From Bulleidia extructa W1219 (GTDB lineage: Bacteria; Bacillota_I; Bacilli_A; Erysipelotrichales; Erysipelotrichaceae): DNA of 64,000 nucleotides. How positions within the stretch are numbered: position 1 is the stretch's first letter; each line of letters opens with the position of its first letter. The notes under the pieces are model-generated. The model was not told the DNA's origin and did not search any database. It saw only the letters and a program-made list of their open reading frames with translations. Positions 17,530 to 41,324 of this stretch are shown piece by piece. Position numbers and translations under genes: made by a program. Where the stretch lies: NCBI RefSeq assembly GCF_000177375.1, contig NZ_ADFR01000016.1:62001-126000 (forward strand). The letters are read 5' to 3'.

Positions 17530-17844
17530 TCACTTTTCTTGTATATAAACAAAACTCACCACATATTCACCATCATGAGAGATTGAAATTTCAATTTCAG
17601 GATGATTTTTGACATAAGGAGAGCCATTTTCCTTATGTAAAATTTCATACGATAGATATTGCTGATCCTGCGTTGCCTTAAAAATAGCTTCTTTAGCACA
17701 AAAATGCGTTGCTAAATAGACCTTTTTTTGTTCATCATTCCGTAAACAACGGTACTCTTCCCATTCATCCCCCGTTAAAATAGAGGACGCCAAAGATTCT
17801 TTTAAAGAGATTCGATTGATCTTGAAGATATCTGTTCCAATCAT
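17530..17844 (-). CDS. acpS: Holo-[acyl-carrier-protein] synthase
   Basis: 104 aa. It transfers 4'-phosphopantetheine from CoA to the conserved Ser of acyl carrier proteins. The family motifs GTDIFKI near the start and FCAKEAIFKA in the middle are present. It lies 65 nt downstream of the ACP gene of the dlt-like cluster, a likely substrate along with the fatty-acid ACP. A strong hairpin terminator separates the two genes, and acpS has its own TATAAT placed 6 nt before ATG with no ribosome site, so it is probably transcribed alone as a leaderless mRNA. Confidence 0.9.
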   Translation of the reverse strand: MIGTDIFKINRISLKESLASSILTGDEWEEYRCLRNDEQKKVYLATHFCAKEAIFKATQDQQYLSYEILHKENGSPYVKNHPEIEISISHDGEYVVSFVYIQEK

Positions 17845-17850
17845 AGATTT

Positions 17851-17856
17851 ATTATA
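17851..17856 (-). promoter_or_regulatory. -10 box of acpS, leaderless geometry
   Basis: Exact TATAAT on the minus strand, 6 nt before ATG 17844. No Shine-Dalgarno in between; the -35 region is weak (T-rich). Confidence 0.55.
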
Positions 17857-17872
17857 ATAAAAATTTGGGACA

Positions 17873-17904
17873 TAAAAAACATGATCTCTCTAGAATCATG
17901 TTTC
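17873..17904 (-). terminator. Terminator after the dlt-like ACP gene
   Basis: Minus strand ACATGAT (17895-17901) pairs with ATCATGT (17879-17885), extended by A-T pairs, and a T6 tract follows. It ends the 23144-17910 operon before acpS. Confidence 0.8.
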
Positions 17905-17909
17905 TAAGA

Positions 17910-18140
17910 TTATTCACTCTTTAATCGATTCACCAAAGCCAATAAAGCCTTAGCAGAATTGAAGTTTTCATTCACAATTTCCGTTGCCGGAATTGAAATA
18001 TCATAATGATCATTCAAAGCACTGATGGTTTGAAGAATATCAAAAGAATCAAACACTTGATGATCAATCAAAAATTCTTCTGTTTCATAATCCACATCAT
18101 CACGCACTTCTTCTTTTAATAAATTAATCAATTCTTCCAT
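17910..18140 (-). CDS. Acyl carrier protein, DltC-like
   Basis: 76 aa four-helix carrier protein. The phosphopantetheine attachment site is Ser32 in FDSFDILQ, followed by the usual acidic helix II. The length and helix pattern fit DltC-type carriers used to hold an activated amino acid as a thioester. AAGGAGA lies before ATG 18140, which is 2 nt after the decarboxylase stop. In this operon it would receive an acyl group from the adenylating enzyme (19249-20730) and hand it to the MBOAT membrane acyltransferase; acpS next door would activate it. It is not in a fatty-acid gene context. Confidence 0.85.
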   Translation of the reverse strand: MEELINLLKEEVRDDVDYETEEFLIDHQVFDSFDILQTISALNDHYDISIPATEIVNENFNSAKALLALVNRLKSE

Positions 18141-18142
18141 TT

Positions 18143-19252
18143 TTATCTCCTTGTGTTTAAAATATACGTTTCTTCTTGATCTCGCAATAATTCCAACTTA
18201 TTGCCACTCAATTTATAGACGGAAGGCAATTTTCTGGATAAGAATAATCCAATCCCTTCTGTTACACCATAAGCTCCACAATTATGAAATACAAGTACAT
18301 CTCCAATCTTTAATTTTGGCAAAGTCACTTTACGAACCAAAACATCTGCCGTTGTACAAAGAGAACCCGCCAAACAATAGTCTGCCATTTCTTCATTCTG
18401 TGGACTTTCTAGAAGAGGAACTTTCATTCCCATCATTTGACCATAGTAATTTAAATGATGAATGCCACCATCTAAAATAGCCACATAGCTGTCGTTTAAT
18501 TTTTTGATATCTTGCACTTGACTATAATAAGATCCACAGTTATATACCATAAAACGACCCATCTCCACCATGACTTCTCTTTTTAAAGAGGATAGACTAT
18601 CTTGAATCGCTTTCAAAGGAGCTAAATCCTCTGAAAAATCATCACCCACAAATAATGGAACCGGTAATCCCGGTCCATACTCCAAGGCTAACGAAAGACG
18701 ATACTTTTTTTCCCACAACTTTAATTGAGCGTCCAACTGCTCTAATTCACTAATCTGATGTTGACTCTTTTTACGTTGAGTTCCTGCAAAATAGTGAATA
18801 CCGATGATTTCAATTTGTGGATCCGGATGCTCAAAAAGATATTCTGTATCTTCTACGCTCATCCCAAATTGATTGCCGGACGTTAAACGAATATAAGCTT
18901 TCACTTTTTCATGACTATTTTTTAAAACCTCTTGGAGACGTTCAAAATGAACGATACTTTCAAAGCTAAATAAACGAACCCCATAATCAAAAGCTTCTTG
19001 AATATCCTCCACCGTTTTATTCACACCGGACATCAATATTTTAAAAGCCGGCACTTTTCGATCTATACAAATTTTCATTTCACCAGGAGAGCAAACTTCC
19101 AACTGGTCAACCGTTTCAAACAATGATTCCACCAGGAACGGATTAGCTTTAATAGAATAACATAACCCCCATTTCCCATCTGCAATCTTTTTAATATCAC
19201 AAATACGCTTTAAAAGTACATTTTCATCCATCACATAATACGGTGTTTTCAT
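18143..19252 (-). CDS. Type III PLP-dependent amino acid decarboxylase in a dlt-like operon
   Basis: 369 aa, alanine-racemase fold (DAP/ornithine decarboxylase class). PLP lysine K35 sits in CYSIKANP. H153 (GIHYFAGTQ), the phosphate-binding GPGLP (193-197), E-M-G-R (230-233), the catalytic C299 and D303 (CTTAD), and Y328 (CGAY) are all in place, so it should be an active decarboxylase and not a racemase. It is shorter than LysA. Placement between an adenylating enzyme and an ACP recalls BtrK of butirosin synthesis, which decarboxylates an ACP-bound glutamyl group. Substrate unproven; free diamino acids or meso-DAP are alternatives. ATG 19252 overlaps the upstream stop and has AAGGAG before it. 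Confidence 0.85.
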   Translation of the reverse strand: MKTPYYVMDENVLLKRICDIKKIADGKWGLCYSIKANPFLVESLFETVDQLEVCSPGEMKICIDRKVPAFKILMSGVNKTVEDIQEAFDYGVRLFSFESIVHFERLQEVLKNSHEKVKAYIRLTSGNQFGMSVEDTEYLFEHPDPQIEIIGIHYFAGTQRKKSQHQISELEQLDAQLKLWEKKYRLSLALEYGPGLPVPLFVGDDFSEDLAPLKAIQDSLSSLKREVMVEMGRFMVYNCGSYYSQVQDIKKLNDSYVAILDGGIHHLNYYGQMMGMKVPLLESPQNEEMADYCLAGSLCTTADVLVRKVTLPKLKIGDVLVFHNCGAYGVTEGIGLFLSRKLPSVYKLSGNKLELLRDQEETYILNTRR

Positions 19253-20730
19253 ACAAAATCTCCTTTCAAAGCTTGCCGATCAATTTTACCATTTTTAGTC
19301 ATTGGTAAATGAGGCCAAAAATGAATATGATTGGGAATCATGTAGCTTGGTAACTTTTTCTTTAAAAAATCAGCCATTTCTTCTTTCGTTAACGTTCCTT
19401 CAAAATGAGCTTCTATCTTACTTCGTTTAGCATCATATAATACGCAAGCTCTTTCACAAGCCAAATGCTCTTGCATGACAATTTCAATCTCACCCAGCTC
19501 AATTCGGTGTCCTAAATGCTTGATTTGAAAATCTTTACGACCTTGGAAAAAAAGCTTCCCTGTTTCGTCATAATAAGCTTGATCACCCGTTCGATACATC
19601 CTTATTTCCACTTCTTTTACAAAAGGATTCAGCGGAAAAGAAGTCGCTGTTTTTTCCGGAAGATTCCAATAGCCAAGCGCTAAGCAATCTCCGCTCACGC
19701 AAATCTCACCTATGCGATTGGGTTCTTTTACTAATTGATCATTTTCATCCAGCAAGAATACCCATTCGTTATCAAAGGCTTTTCCAATACTGATATGATC
19801 CAAATCTCCTTTTTGATCAATGATTTCATAGGTGCAATTGCAAGTAATCTCAGTAGGGCCATATAAATTCACATACCGAACTTGTGGTAAAAACTTCATC
19901 CACTTTCTTAGATGTTTCACCGGCATAACCTCACCAGAGAATAAGATAGAATGAATTCTATCCGGCAAACGATACGATAAGCCGTTCATGATTGACACAA
20001 AACACAAAGCGGAAACCGCCCAAACTAATACTGTTGCTTCTTTTTCTACCAACAAATCCATCAAATCTGTCGGATTGGAGAAAAATTCTCGTGGAATCAA
20101 AATCACCGAAGCCCCTAAGTACATAGCCGAATACAAATCCTTCACTGAAACATCAAAATCCAGCGGAGCTTGATTCGCAAAAACATCGTCTTCCTGAAAT
20201 TGAAACGTCTTACAAAAGGTAGGGATAAAATCAAGAACTGATCGATGACTAACCGCTACTCCTTTTGGTTGACCTGTACTGCCGGAAGTAAAATTGATAT
20301 ATAACGGTGCATTGGAATAACAATGAGTTTTTAGCTCTACTTCCTCTGTTGATAAAAGAATATCTTCTTCCAGTAAATACTCAAAAGAAGAAACTAGTTT
20401 TTCATATCCTTGTTTCACAATCAAGCAACTTGGCTGAAGCTGTTCTAACATTTTTGATAACCGCTCTTCACTTTGTCTAGTATCTAAAACACAATAGCAC
20501 GCACCACAATAAGCACACGCCATCATCCAAGAAACCAGCTCAATGGACTTATCCATCAATAAAGCAACTGGCCGATACATTTGACTTCTATCTTTTAAAA
20601 ATGAAGCCTTCTTTTGTGTCAAACGCCAAAACTCAGAATACGTTATTTGGCTGTTTTTTTCCATCAAAAAAATATTATTAGGAACCCGCTTTACTGTGTT
20701 TTCTAAAATATCAATTACCGTTTTCATCAT
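19249..20730 (-). CDS. DltA-like amino acid adenylating enzyme
   Basis: 493 aa, AMP-forming adenylation domain without a carrier or condensation domain. Core motifs: TSGSTGQPKG (148-157), FDVSV with D193 for the amino group, NLYGPTE (288-294), YRTGD (379-383) and catalytic K482 (NGKIDRQ). The residue that gives DltA its D-Ala preference, Cys in FCGE, is Ser265 here (FSGEVMP), and CNCTY follows the GPTE motif. So it activates an amino acid onto the operon's ACP, but D-alanine is not assured. It starts directly after the MBOAT stop codon (TAAATG) and overlaps the decarboxylase by 4 nt. Confidence 0.85.
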   Translation of the reverse strand: MMKTVIDILENTVKRVPNNIFLMEKNSQITYSEFWRLTQKKASFLKDRSQMYRPVALLMDKSIELVSWMMACAYCGACYCVLDTRQSEERLSKMLEQLQPSCLIVKQGYEKLVSSFEYLLEEDILLSTEEVELKTHCYSNAPLYINFTSGSTGQPKGVAVSHRSVLDFIPTFCKTFQFQEDDVFANQAPLDFDVSVKDLYSAMYLGASVILIPREFFSNPTDLMDLLVEKEATVLVWAVSALCFVSIMNGLSYRLPDRIHSILFSGEVMPVKHLRKWMKFLPQVRYVNLYGPTEITCNCTYEIIDQKGDLDHISIGKAFDNEWVFLLDENDQLVKEPNRIGEICVSGDCLALGYWNLPEKTATSFPLNPFVKEVEIRMYRTGDQAYYDETGKLFFQGRKDFQIKHLGHRIELGEIEIVMQEHLACERACVLYDAKRSKIEAHFEGTLTKEEMADFLKKKLPSYMIPNHIHFWPHLPMTKNGKIDRQALKGDFV

Positions 20731-22257
20731 TTAAAACCCCGCATACATCATCGCCACATGATCAAATCCTGGCCCATAAGTCGCAAATAAAATATACGCG
20801 ACAACTAAACCATACATCACTAAAACCTGAATAGATCCATGAGAACTAAAGAAGCTTTGTTTCCAATCCCAACCTTTTTCTTTTGCGATATTGAAAAGAC
20901 TCACTAAAACAAAACCAATCCCGACCACCAACCACTCTGCCTTAGTAATAGAAACGATCGATAAGAAAGCTGATAATTCTTGTCCTCTAAAATTAGAGAA
21001 AATACTTTTGACCATCATCCCAAAAGCACTTAAATTCGGTGATAAAAATAACGCTTCCCCAAGACAAACAATTATAATCAATTTGATAAAGCGAAGAGTC
21101 TTAACACCAAATGAATCAGAAGAGACTCCTGTTTTTTGATAAAAAGACTGCATTGGTTTTTCCAGCAATAAATCCAATAAAATAAAGATAAAATAGTACA
21201 ACCCATATAAAATATAGGTCGATTGCGGACCATGCCAAAGTCCATTTGCCAACCAAACAAAGAATAAAGCAATGATCGGACCAACTAAGCGAGCCACTGA
21301 CTTATTGATGTGCTTTTTTGTCCATTTACTCATTTTCTGAACCGGCTTTGCTAAAGAAATCGGATAAAAGATGTAATCACGGAAAAAATGACCCAATGTC
21401 ATATGCCAACGGCGCCAAAACTCCGAGGCATCTTTCGCAAAAAATGGTTGATTAAAGTTTTCCGGTAATGTAATTCCCAATAATTTAGCCGAACCAATTG
21501 CCATATCTACTGAACCGGAAAAATCCATATAAATTTGTAAAGTACACAACCCAATTCCCAATAATGAAATGGAACCGATATGTGTATAAGATTTAAAAAT
21601 AAGAGCCACCACCGGAGCGATTCCATCCGCAATGACTGATTTTTTCAATAGCCCCCAAAAAATACGGATAAATCCCTCTTTCAAATCATTGAAGCTAGCC
21701 CCGTCTGCTTTCCTAATTTGAGGAACCACCTCTTTAAAACGTGTGATAGGTCCCAAAACAATGGTTGGAAAAAAGCTCGTATATACTAAAACATCCACTA
21801 AACTCGGATTTTTTATCTTATTTGTTTTCACATCCACTATCAAAGAGATCAATTGCAAGGAATAATAACTAATTCCTAGCGGTAAAATTAACCTTTTTAC
21901 TTGTAAATTAGAAGAAAAGAAAGAATTAAAAATTTCAATGAAAAAATTCCAGTATTTCAGTTTGAATAATACCACTAATAAAAAGACGATACTAAAAAAG
22001 GTAACTACATTCTTTTTCCTTTTCTTGATACATTTATCTTTTTCTTTCAATTCTATCTTATCTAATAACCAACAAGACATATAGACAAAAATAGACGAAG
22101 CTAAGTAAATAACCACTAATTTCCGTGACCAGTTAAAATAAAAGGCCATATTGATTAATAAAAGAGCATATTTTCGAAAACGTTTTGGCACGATGTGATA
22201 GAAAAGAACGGCTAAAGGAAGAAAACCGGCAATGTATAAAATACGAGTATAACTCAT
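20731..22257 (-). CDS. MBOAT membrane acyltransferase (DltB/AlgI-like)
   Basis: 508 aa polytopic membrane protein. The family signatures ENFNQPFFAKDASEFWRRWH (about 266-285), FFRDYIFYPI and the invariant catalytic His H342 in NGLWHG are all intact. Its length is nearer AlgI/PatA than the roughly 400-aa DltB. It would take an acyl group from the ACP in the cytoplasm and pass it across the membrane for esterification of a cell-surface polymer. ATG 22257 overlaps the SGNH gene's stop (ATGA) and has AGAGGT upstream. Confidence 0.88.
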   Translation of the reverse strand: MSYTRILYIAGFLPLAVLFYHIVPKRFRKYALLLINMAFYFNWSRKLVVIYLASSIFVYMSCWLLDKIELKEKDKCIKKRKKNVVTFFSIVFLLVVLFKLKYWNFFIEIFNSFFSSNLQVKRLILPLGISYYSLQLISLIVDVKTNKIKNPSLVDVLVYTSFFPTIVLGPITRFKEVVPQIRKADGASFNDLKEGFIRIFWGLLKKSVIADGIAPVVALIFKSYTHIGSISLLGIGLCTLQIYMDFSGSVDMAIGSAKLLGITLPENFNQPFFAKDASEFWRRWHMTLGHFFRDYIFYPISLAKPVQKMSKWTKKHINKSVARLVGPIIALFFVWLANGLWHGPQSTYILYGLYYFIFILLDLLLEKPMQSFYQKTGVSSDSFGVKTLRFIKLIIIVCLGEALFLSPNLSAFGMMVKSIFSNFRGQELSAFLSIVSITKAEWLVVGIGFVLVSLFNIAKEKGWDWKQSFFSSHGSIQVLVMYGLVVAYILFATYGPGFDHVAMMYAGF

Positions 22258-23144
22258 TGTTGTTGACCTCTTTCTAATTCTTTAACCAAGTAGGAGCCTA
22301 ACGCTTTTCTGATTTTTTCTTCACCAAAGTCATTTAAATGATCACCACCATCACGATAATCTTTCTCAAAATCAATCTTCACCTGTTTTAATTTCAAATT
22401 ATAATCGATATAGCGAATGCCATTTTGATTTGCCCACTTTTCAACTTCATCATGTCTCTTTTGATTCCAATTCACAGGACTTGGAACACTGACCAACACT
22501 AACTTCACACCAGAATCATGGCATAGCTTTTTAATCTTATCCAAGTACTTTAAATTAAAACGATTTAAATACGTAATATTATATGGATTTAAAGGGTTAA
22601 AAGGAATTTTCTTTTGTTTCATATAATCCATTCTCTTTCGATACGCTTCTATCGTTTTATCCGGATAATACCCCAAATGAGGATCTTCTTTCCCCTTTAA
22701 ATCAAACCGATACATCGCATGATAATTCATAATTGGAAAAAGGTTCATTAAATCAAAACGATTATATTTATTGGTAGCATTAAACAGAGCGTGTGCCTCT
22801 AAAACGATGATTTTCGGCTTTTGCGTTTTTAATGCTTCACGAATCATAACATAGCTATCCAAGGTCATTTGGCCGGTTGTTGATAAATTATAGTTTTTAA
22901 TTCCGAATTCTTTTTCATATCCCTTTGGATTAAATCCTGTCCAAGCCAAACTATCCCCTACAAAAAGAACTTCTTTTGAAAACGGCTTTTCTTGTTGATA
23001 TGTCGATAATTTTGGTTGTACATATTGATAATGGTATCCATATTTTTCTAAACTACCAAATGGAAGTCCTATTACATAAACAACCACCACTAATCCTAAG
23101 AAAAATAAACCTATCTTTACAAATAATTGAACTATTTTTTTCAT
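22254..23144 (-). CDS. Membrane-anchored SGNH-family protein, DltD/AlgJ-like
   Basis: 296 aa. One N-terminal helix (about 5-27) anchors an extracytoplasmic SGNH-hydrolase fold. The nucleophile Ser65 lies in VGDSLAWTG, and the C-terminal DGGDHLND (D265, H269) supplies the catalytic acid and His. DltD and AlgJ/AlgX act with MBOAT proteins in transferring acyl groups to surface polymers, and this gene is first in the operon, just ahead of the MBOAT gene. TAGAAT lies 8 nt before ATG 23144 with no Shine-Dalgarno, so the operon mRNA is probably leaderless. Confidence 0.78.
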   Translation of the reverse strand: MKKIVQLFVKIGLFFLGLVVVVYVIGLPFGSLEKYGYHYQYVQPKLSTYQQEKPFSKEVLFVGDSLAWTGFNPKGYEKEFGIKNYNLSTTGQMTLDSYVMIREALKTQKPKIIVLEAHALFNATNKYNRFDLMNLFPIMNYHAMYRFDLKGKEDPHLGYYPDKTIEAYRKRMDYMKQKKIPFNPLNPYNITYLNRFNLKYLDKIKKLCHDSGVKLVLVSVPSPVNWNQKRHDEVEKWANQNGIRYIDYNLKLKQVKIDFEKDYRDGGDHLNDFGEEKIRKALGSYLVKELERGQQQ

Positions 23145-27092: not shown

Positions 27093-27713
27093 TTAACGAT
27101 GTAATAGCGGACTGATTGATTTATACAATAATAAAGTGCAAATAGAAACGATGATTCCTTTGATTAAATTAAAAGGAAGTACTGATAAAAGCACAAATCC
27201 CAAAGAATCTTGGATGAGTGGAATAATGGCTTGCCCGGCCTTTACAATTGAAGAAATACTCGTATGAAAGAAATATGCATACGCAGGTAATAATAAGAAA
27301 TAATTCGCAATTACTCCTGTGGTCGCCATGACTATAGTTCCTACACCCAATCCAATGAAAGCATTCTTTTTTGTTTTCTGTTTTTTATAAATGAACATAG
27401 CTGGCAAAACAAAAGAAAGACCAATTAAAAAATTCGCCAATTCTCCTACAAAAGCGGTTACCGTTCCTTTGAAAAGAAGATGTAAAACAATCTTTAAAGC
27501 TTCTATACAAACGGCCGCAAAGGGGCCCAAACTAAATCCGCCAATCAAAACAGCCACTTCACTTAAATCAAATTTATAGAAAGGCGGTGCAATGAATGGT
27601 AATGGAAATTCAATAGACATTAAAACAAAAGCCAAGGCTCCCATAATCGCCATCAGCGCCACACGTTTGATGGTAGAAACTTTTCTTTCTACTGTTTGAA
27701 CATTTTCTGACAT
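27093..27713 (-). CDS. ribU: Riboflavin ECF transporter S component
   Basis: 206 aa with about six membrane helices. The stretch IEFPLPFIAPPFYKFDLSE is characteristic of RibU, the riboflavin-binding S subunit that docks onto the shared EcfAA'T module, whose genes are not in this window. The FMN riboswitch upstream (27770-27882) is direct support for a flavin role. GAAGGAG lies 7 nt before ATG 27713. Cells with RibU take up riboflavin instead of, or in addition to, making it. Confidence 0.93.
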   Translation of the reverse strand: MSENVQTVERKVSTIKRVALMAIMGALAFVLMSIEFPLPFIAPPFYKFDLSEVAVLIGGFSLGPFAAVCIEALKIVLHLLFKGTVTAFVGELANFLIGLSFVLPAMFIYKKQKTKKNAFIGLGVGTIVMATTGVIANYFLLLPAYAYFFHTSISSIVKAGQAIIPLIQDSLGFVLLSVLPFNLIKGIIVSICTLLLYKSISPLLHR

Positions 27714-27769: not shown

Positions 27770-27882
27770 ATAAAAGACTCTTTCATCCAGACTCTACTGT
27801 CGCCTTCGGAATCACACCGAATCATGCCATAGGCTCGCGGGGTATACCGCCGGTAGGGAATTTCACCCTGCCCTGAGTTACA
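27770..27882 (-). ncRNA. FMN riboswitch (RFN element)
   Basis: Minus strand has the conserved RFN blocks in order: GGGCAGGGTGAAATTCCC, ACCGGCGGTA, GCGAGC, GGTGTGATTCCGA, CGACAGT and AGTCTGGATGAAAGA. It lies directly upstream of ribU, with a downstream intrinsic terminator. FMN binding is expected to switch off ribU transcription. A TATAAT (27888-27893) just upstream gives the promoter. Confidence 0.95.
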
Positions 27883-27887
27883 CTTTA

Positions 27888-41103: not shown

Positions 41104-41318
41104 AAAAAGCGCCCTTTCTATCTAAGGACGCTCTTTGCGCGGTACCACCTTAGTTCATAGACTTCCCTATGCCCTCTATCCCCTTTAACGCAAGGTCACG
41201 GTCTGCCTTTTGAGACAAACAGCTCCAAGGTGTATTTCCGATCTTTCCAAACAAGCTTTTTCACCAAACAAGCTCTCTCTACCGTTCTTTCAGATGGTAC
41301 TTCTTCTTTTCAACGCTT
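41104..41318 (-). ncRNA. T-box leader, tyrosine-specific
   Basis: Minus strand T-box core AAGGTGGTACCGCG (41138-41151), followed by the terminator stem AGCGTCC/GGGCGCT with T5 (about 41104-41132). Upstream stem I contains a TAC specifier at 41297-41299 after GAAG, matching Tyr, and an AGAGAG stretch. Its TGGT bulge would pair with an ACCA tRNA end. Uncharged tRNA-Tyr should permit tyrS transcription. Confidence 0.93.
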
Positions 41319-41324
41319 TAAGAC

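Follow-up and report, generated by a model that had tools for sequence, protein, structure and literature searches.

D-alanylation sets the surface charge of Gram-positive bacteria, their tolerance of cationic peptides and immune signalling. In the biosynthesis of the antibiotic butirosin, BtrK acts on ACP-bound Glu and gives GABA-ACP. The vicenistatin ligase VinN loads 3-methyl-Asp on the carrier protein VinL, where VinO then removes a carboxylate; FlvN, a ligase from the same kind of pathway, recognises Asp (PMC11284099). Among surface acylation systems, PatA acetylates the tyrosine of a C-terminal hexapeptide from which PatB takes the group, and DltX is the separate provider of the shuttle motif in the Dlt system (PMC12148441). 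The window analysed here, that is the whole stretch of 64,000 nucleotides from Bulleidia extructa W1219, contains a locus which combines elements of these systems and probably encodes surface acylation of the Dlt type, with a decarboxylation step on the carrier.

Organisation and distribution of the gene set

Six genes were verified on the minus strand, tightly packed in the order SGNH–MBOAT–AMP ligase–type III PLP decarboxylase–ACP–acpS. The SGNH and MBOAT genes overlap by 4 nt, as do those of the AMP ligase and the decarboxylase, while the MBOAT and ligase genes abut and the gap between decarboxylase and ACP is 2 nt. The gene order and the 4-nt overlaps given in the original prediction, and its decarboxylase motif residues K35, C299 and D303, are all present, and Pfam and NCBIfam confirmed the families that it had named for the AlgI/DltB-type MBOAT, the DltA-like ligase and the DltC-like ACP. 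A terminator-like hairpin (23241-23220; a consensus match only) is located between the operon and gpsA. Elsewhere in the window there is an FMN riboswitch (27771-27884, minus strand) upstream of an ORF for a RibU-like transporter (27093-27713), and a T-box leader (41121-41322, minus strand).

A search for the decarboxylase in 149 related genomes gave a sharp split between orthologues (E <1e-60) and LysA-like proteins (E about 1e-10 to 1e-18), with an orthologue in 26 genomes, the window's own included; several related genomes encode both an orthologue and a separate LysA-like protein. An AMP ligase is adjacent in 26 of 26 loci, with an ACP in 24 and an MBOAT nearby in 24. The outer flanks of the 26 loci are largely unrelated, and at least three gene orders occur, SGNH-MBOAT-AMP-DC-ACP, AMP-DC-ACP-MBOAT-SGNH and MBOAT-SGNH-AMP-DC-ACP (DC, decarboxylase). 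Three decarboxylase orthologues (G238:C8, G278:C1 and G479:C1) have one in-frame stop each, from assembly error or decay. In an even draw of 392 genomes across the phylum, the orthologue was found in 15.

A profile scan of named genomes returned at least 582 relatives of the decarboxylase. The best 80 of these include proteins from Eubacterium ramulus, Butyrivibrio, Lachnospira multipara, Ruminococcus albus and Gemmiger formicilis, and also from Slackia exigua, Olsenella, Tractidigestivibacter and a Treponema MAG; the window's relatives among the matches listed are records of the Erysipelotrichaceae/Solobacterium type. Fifty named-genome loci among the matches listed have at least 5 kb on each side (Lachnospiraceae, Ruminococcus, Butyrivibrio, Gemmiger, Slackia and Olsenella), and counting genes within about 7 kb gave a ligase in 47, an ACP in 45, an MBOAT in 39 and an SGNH gene in 34 of them, about one fifth being without MBOAT. 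The neighbourhood comparison proposed with the original prediction thus found the five-gene set retained while flanks and order change, both in the 26 genomes and in the 50 loci. Chance grouping is excluded, since the gene set is conserved across families and phyla.

The trio of ligase, decarboxylase and ACP is also found in other company. In L134, L135 and L115 it belongs to polysaccharide or sugar-nucleotide clusters, where a hexapeptide-family or an Acyl_transf_3 protein takes the place of MBOAT and SGNH. L134 and L135 have it among sugar-nucleotide genes (the neighbours in L135 are genes for a DegT aminotransferase, a UDP-GlcNAc 2-epimerase and a hexapeptide-family protein), and in L115 it adjoins the Acyl_transf_3 protein. 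Because a minority of loci pair it with such genes, the trio has the look of a portable unit that supplies aminoacyl-ACP to envelope glycans. The Treponema sp. CETP13 MAG (L089) has the trio and an SGNH gene, by true transfer or mis-binning; spirochaetes are a group without teichoic acids.

Proposed loading and decarboxylation of an amino acid

The AMP ligase (19249-20730) is a stand-alone, DltA-like amino-acid adenylation protein by Pfam and NCBIfam. Its pocket residues are D193 V194 K197 V236 L263 S265 L289 C297 N298 K482. When pocket positions were placed in GrsA numbering by our own alignment, 91 of 96 ligases shared the code D V K [IVT] x S [LV] C N K, from which individual ligases deviate at the fourth position, and the remaining 5 had I A R.. 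S Q A S K. The latter, of the R. albus type (L105, L113, L117 and L124, Ruminococcus type, and L049), accompany the same decarboxylase family in the order AMP-ACP-DC in 5 of 5 cases. Position 239 (GrsA numbering) is basic in all 96 ligases. D235 together with K239 is the pattern of acidic-amino-acid ligases, the Glu code being DAKDLGVVDK. The near-invariant pocket (Asp193, Lys197) differs from that of DltA and would suit an acidic amino acid. The ligase was assigned neither to DltA nor to the VinN type, since it scores 269 bits against the DltA equivalog TIGR01734 (cut-off 559.85) and has DVK..CN where a VinN-like comparator has DYY..KR; these comparators came from L140 and L141, and VinN itself was not among them. 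The exosortase-A model TIGR03098 gave 184 against a cut-off of 592. A structural model of the ligase (pLDDT 88), being without ligand, cannot separate Asp from Glu.

The decarboxylase (18143-19252) is a type III PLP enzyme of the BtrK/VinO kind, with both Orn/DAP/Arg decarboxylase domains identified by Pfam/NCBIfam and with K35, C299 and D303 invariant among 26 aligned family members. The best PDB match of its profile is BtrK (E 1e-58), followed by SbnH (entry 6knh, which we take to be SbnH) and then LysA, so that the BtrK parallel of the original prediction turned out to concern the nearest solved structure. The signatures of the decarboxylase are GSLCTTAD and DGGIHH..YYGQMMGM; GSLCTTAD and DGGIHHLNYYGQMMGM align to GPLCTPED and DGGMHHHAASTFRGRSM of BtrK, GxLCTxxD and DGG(I/M)(H/N)H..GxxM being common to both. 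Signatures of similar type occur in a VinO-like protein on a Streptomyces plasmid, whose neighbours are a VinN-like ligase, glutamate mutase genes and a type I PKS. In L141, a Streptomyces plasmid, the trio of ligase, decarboxylase and ACP is part of a biosynthetic cluster that also encodes a TrpB-like enzyme and two acyl-CoA dehydrogenases. Assignment to the exosortase-A decarboxylase family TIGR03099 was rejected, as the score (145.5 bits) is far under the cut-off of 478.

The ACP (17910-18140), a DltC-like acyl or aminoacyl carrier protein, has an invariant Ser32 in its DSFD motif and reaches the PP-binding cut-off; the DltC model matches it with E 3.5e-7, which is under DltC's own cut-off. 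AcpS (17530-17844), of the ACPS family, is the only phosphopantetheinyl transferase found in the genome and likely activates this ACP as well as the fatty-acid ACP.

From these features we infer the substrate, regiochemistry and product of the pathway as well as its acceptor. From the pocket code one can predict that the amino acid is acidic but not which of its carboxylates is activated. A PLP decarboxylase only removes a carboxylate beside a free amine, and a thioester at the alpha-carboxylate would block the reaction; activation of the side chain is therefore the coherent reading, for which VinN and VinO are a precedent. AcpS would turn the ACP into its holo form, and the ligase would take an acidic amino acid, most likely Asp and failing that Glu, activate it at the side-chain carboxylate and load it on the ACP, with Asp193 holding the amine and Lys197 the free alpha-carboxylate. 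The decarboxylase would then strip the alpha-carboxylate of the tethered amino acid, converting Asp to beta-alanyl-ACP or Glu to GABA-ACP. By analogy we weakly rank Asp to beta-alanine above Glu to GABA, because of the VinN and FlvN precedent and because GABA thioesters are prone to cyclise. Of the two orders left open in the original prediction, loading followed by decarboxylation is the one to which the ligase pocket points.

The reverse order, in which free beta-alanine or GABA is made first and is then the substrate of the ligase, would lead to an identical decoration, and IdnL3, a PLP decarboxylase of incednine synthesis, reportedly uses beta-glutamate, apparently at a stage ahead of loading (PMC11284099). 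We consider it unlikely here, as an omega-amino acid, which has no second carboxylate, would hardly call for the conserved basic residue at position 239, and the decarboxylase signatures group with BtrK and the VinO-like protein.

Proposed membrane transfer and possible acceptor

The MBOAT (20731-22257; Pfam/NCBIfam) is the only one that a family search found in the whole genome. His285 and His342 are invariant, and the protein ends in MMYAGF, in which Tyr505 and Phe508 are invariant and Met replaces the first Phe of FxYxxF. The form [FM]xYxxF, or one close to it, ends 57 of 60 MBOATs of the named loci. There is no separate DltX gene in the operon, which has no room for one, and the DltB equivalog TIGR04091 scores 165.5 bits at a cut-off of 375. 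Judged from these residues, MMYAGF resembles an acyl-shuttle motif of the PatA/DltX type that is fused to the MBOAT and would be joined to a carrier-protein donor.

The SGNH protein (22254-23144) has an N-terminal membrane helix and is matched by Pfam only below cut-off. Its AlphaFold model (mean pLDDT 89) matches SGNH hydrolases and PatB, and Ser65, Asp262 and His269 are invariant in an alignment of 18 members; the SGNH-like assignment of the original prediction is thus weak by Pfam and carried by a confident model. The modelled fold suggests a DltD/PatB-like role in the last acyl transfer to the polymer. Taken together, the pair has the features of an MBOAT–SGNH acyltransferase, namely the conserved MBOAT His with the C-terminal motif, and an SGNH fold with Ser and His.

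In the proposed mechanism, the MBOAT would carry the acyl group across the membrane and attach it to the tyrosine in its C-terminal MMYAGF motif. The SGNH protein would then esterify a hydroxyl group of an envelope glycopolymer with it, so that the amine stays free and strongly basic. An ester of the beta-alanine or GABA type, if formed, would exceed the D-alanyl ester in basicity and stability. A glycerol-phosphate polymer is a possible acceptor, because the genome encodes one sulfatase-family protein of LtaS-like layout. The surface-amine reading of the original prediction is supported as far as sequence goes, with amino acid and acceptor deduced.

The trio could also feed some other acceptor, such as a sugar amino group or a small molecule, rather than form an O-ester on an envelope polymer, and its position among sugar-nucleotide genes in L134 and L135 and beside an Acyl_transf_3 protein in L115 would fit such a role. 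For the window this is decidedly improbable, since here, as in most loci, the trio is paired with a shuttle-motif MBOAT and an SGNH protein, which is the pair used for polymer O-acylation (PMC12148441).

Competing pathways and comparison with known systems

The shuttle-tyrosine motif of the MBOAT, the lack of a canonical dlt operon and the presence of sister cassettes without decarboxylase go beyond the original prediction. None of the 26 genomes with the module has a canonical DltA passing the TIGR01734 cut-off, which two control genomes do, and among the 149 related genomes DltA is above cut-off in only 1. A canonical dlt operon elsewhere in the window's genome was rejected, as it has only one MBOAT and one DltA-like protein.

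Dlt-like cassettes of ligase, ACP, MBOAT and SGNH protein without decarboxylase occur in related genomes as well. Most of their ligases have other pocket codes, namely SMSYLALDIK and near variants, DAKCAGLGMK, DAKLTALVDK or DAKTTSLGVK; SMSYLALDIK was found in L152-L156, L158, L160-L163 and L165, with near variants in L155, L158 and L163. Asp235, the residue that binds the amine, is missing from this code and position 330 is an Asp, which would suit an amino acid whose amine is distal. Two genomes (G034 and G116) carry both kinds of cassette, the decarboxylase-free one having a different ligase code. In the ligase tree, 25 decarboxylase-bearing cassettes are in one clade (SH-aLRT 96). Two further genomes, G016 (L151) and G044 (L169), have a cassette with the DVK..SLCNK ligase and no decarboxylase found genome-wide; this may be due to loss, a missing contig or an ancestral state, and the ligase code may predate the decarboxylase. 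The table of ligase code against decarboxylase (25/1/2/18) gives a Fisher p of 1e-9, which overstates the evidence because the link amounts to only one or two events on the ligase tree, and a pairs test had too few independent events. The link is supportive and not decisive.

These cassettes bear on whether the ligase loads Asp or Glu via the alpha-carboxylate, the decarboxylase being an independent enzyme that shares the operon. D235 and K239 also suit ordinary alpha-activation of acidic amino acids, and DAK-coded cassettes without decarboxylase exist. We regard this as very unlikely, as the decarboxylase adjoins this ligase in nearly all loci and in several gene orders, and the R. albus type keeps the decarboxylase with a different ligase.

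In LysA of related genomes, GKCCESGD and DGGM.D..NIRP stand in place of the decarboxylase signatures. A diaminopimelate decarboxylase making lysine, for growth or for lysyl decoration, can hardly be encoded here: the LysA equivalog model does match (E 7e-41) and the decarboxylase is the single PF00278 protein found in the genome, but the score is 140 bits at a cut-off of 297.9, the LysA substrate motifs (RP, CES) are absent, no dapA-family gene was found by a family search that was positive in all control genomes, and several relatives encode separate LysA-like proteins. Lysine synthesis was rejected on the same motifs, score and lack of dapA, which also answers the concern, raised with the original prediction, that the enzyme might act only on meso-DAP; statements on the window's own genome are from family searches of a 97.9% complete assembly. 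Since BtrK is the best match, the signatures are shared, and neither dapA nor a second PF00278 protein was found, the decarboxylase is by its sequence an enzyme for carrier-bound or conjugated amino acids and not for lysine. The gene set and its conservation, the active-site residues, the family placement and the absence of competing dlt and lysine pathways are direct observations.

In a wider sense, we lean towards the view that in gut Firmicutes and Coriobacteriia an ACP-fed MBOAT with a fused tyrosine motif serves to esterify a wall polymer not with D-alanine but with beta-alanine or GABA, produced by decarboxylation on the carrier, and that this is a widespread and undescribed system. A literature search, with many subscription papers outside it, found no decarboxylase in a Dlt or MBOAT operon and no beta-alanine or GABA on teichoic acid. 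If the view is correct, many gut and rumen bacteria that seem to be without D-alanylation use a decarboxylated amine instead, and a carrier protein supplies an MBOAT to which the shuttle motif is fused. The chemistry of antibiotic starters, loading followed by decarboxylation on an ACP, would then meet that of the cell wall.

Several known systems share parts of this design. The exosortase-A ligase, decarboxylase and ACP (TIGR03098/TIGR03099) are of similar families, but the operon scores far below their cut-offs. BtrK of the BtrI/BtrJ/BtrK system is the closest solved decarboxylase, and that system serves antibiotic side-chain synthesis, with BtrJ being a different type of ligase. VinN/VinL/VinO (vicenistatin) and FlvN (fluvirucin B2) have a parallel loading logic, with Asp or 3-methyl-Asp loaded on a stand-alone ACP; however, they supply polyketide starters in actinomycetes, with another ligase lineage and pocket and with neither MBOAT nor SGNH protein. 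The Dlt system (DltX-A-B-C-D) likewise has an AMP ligase, a stand-alone carrier, an MBOAT and an SGNH protein in one operon, and its MBOAT uses a carrier-bound donor, as it would here. In contrast to Dlt, the present operon has an extra decarboxylase, a ligase with DVK..SLCNK where the DltA-like code is DLM..C, and the DltX motif fused to the MBOAT in place of a separate DltX, and it does not reach the DltA and DltB equivalog cut-offs. PatA/PatB and AlgI-type systems have, as here, an MBOAT with a C-terminal FxYxxF shuttle motif and an SGNH partner, but they use acyl-CoA donors (PMC12148441), whereas in the present operon the ligase, the decarboxylase and the ACP would make the donor.
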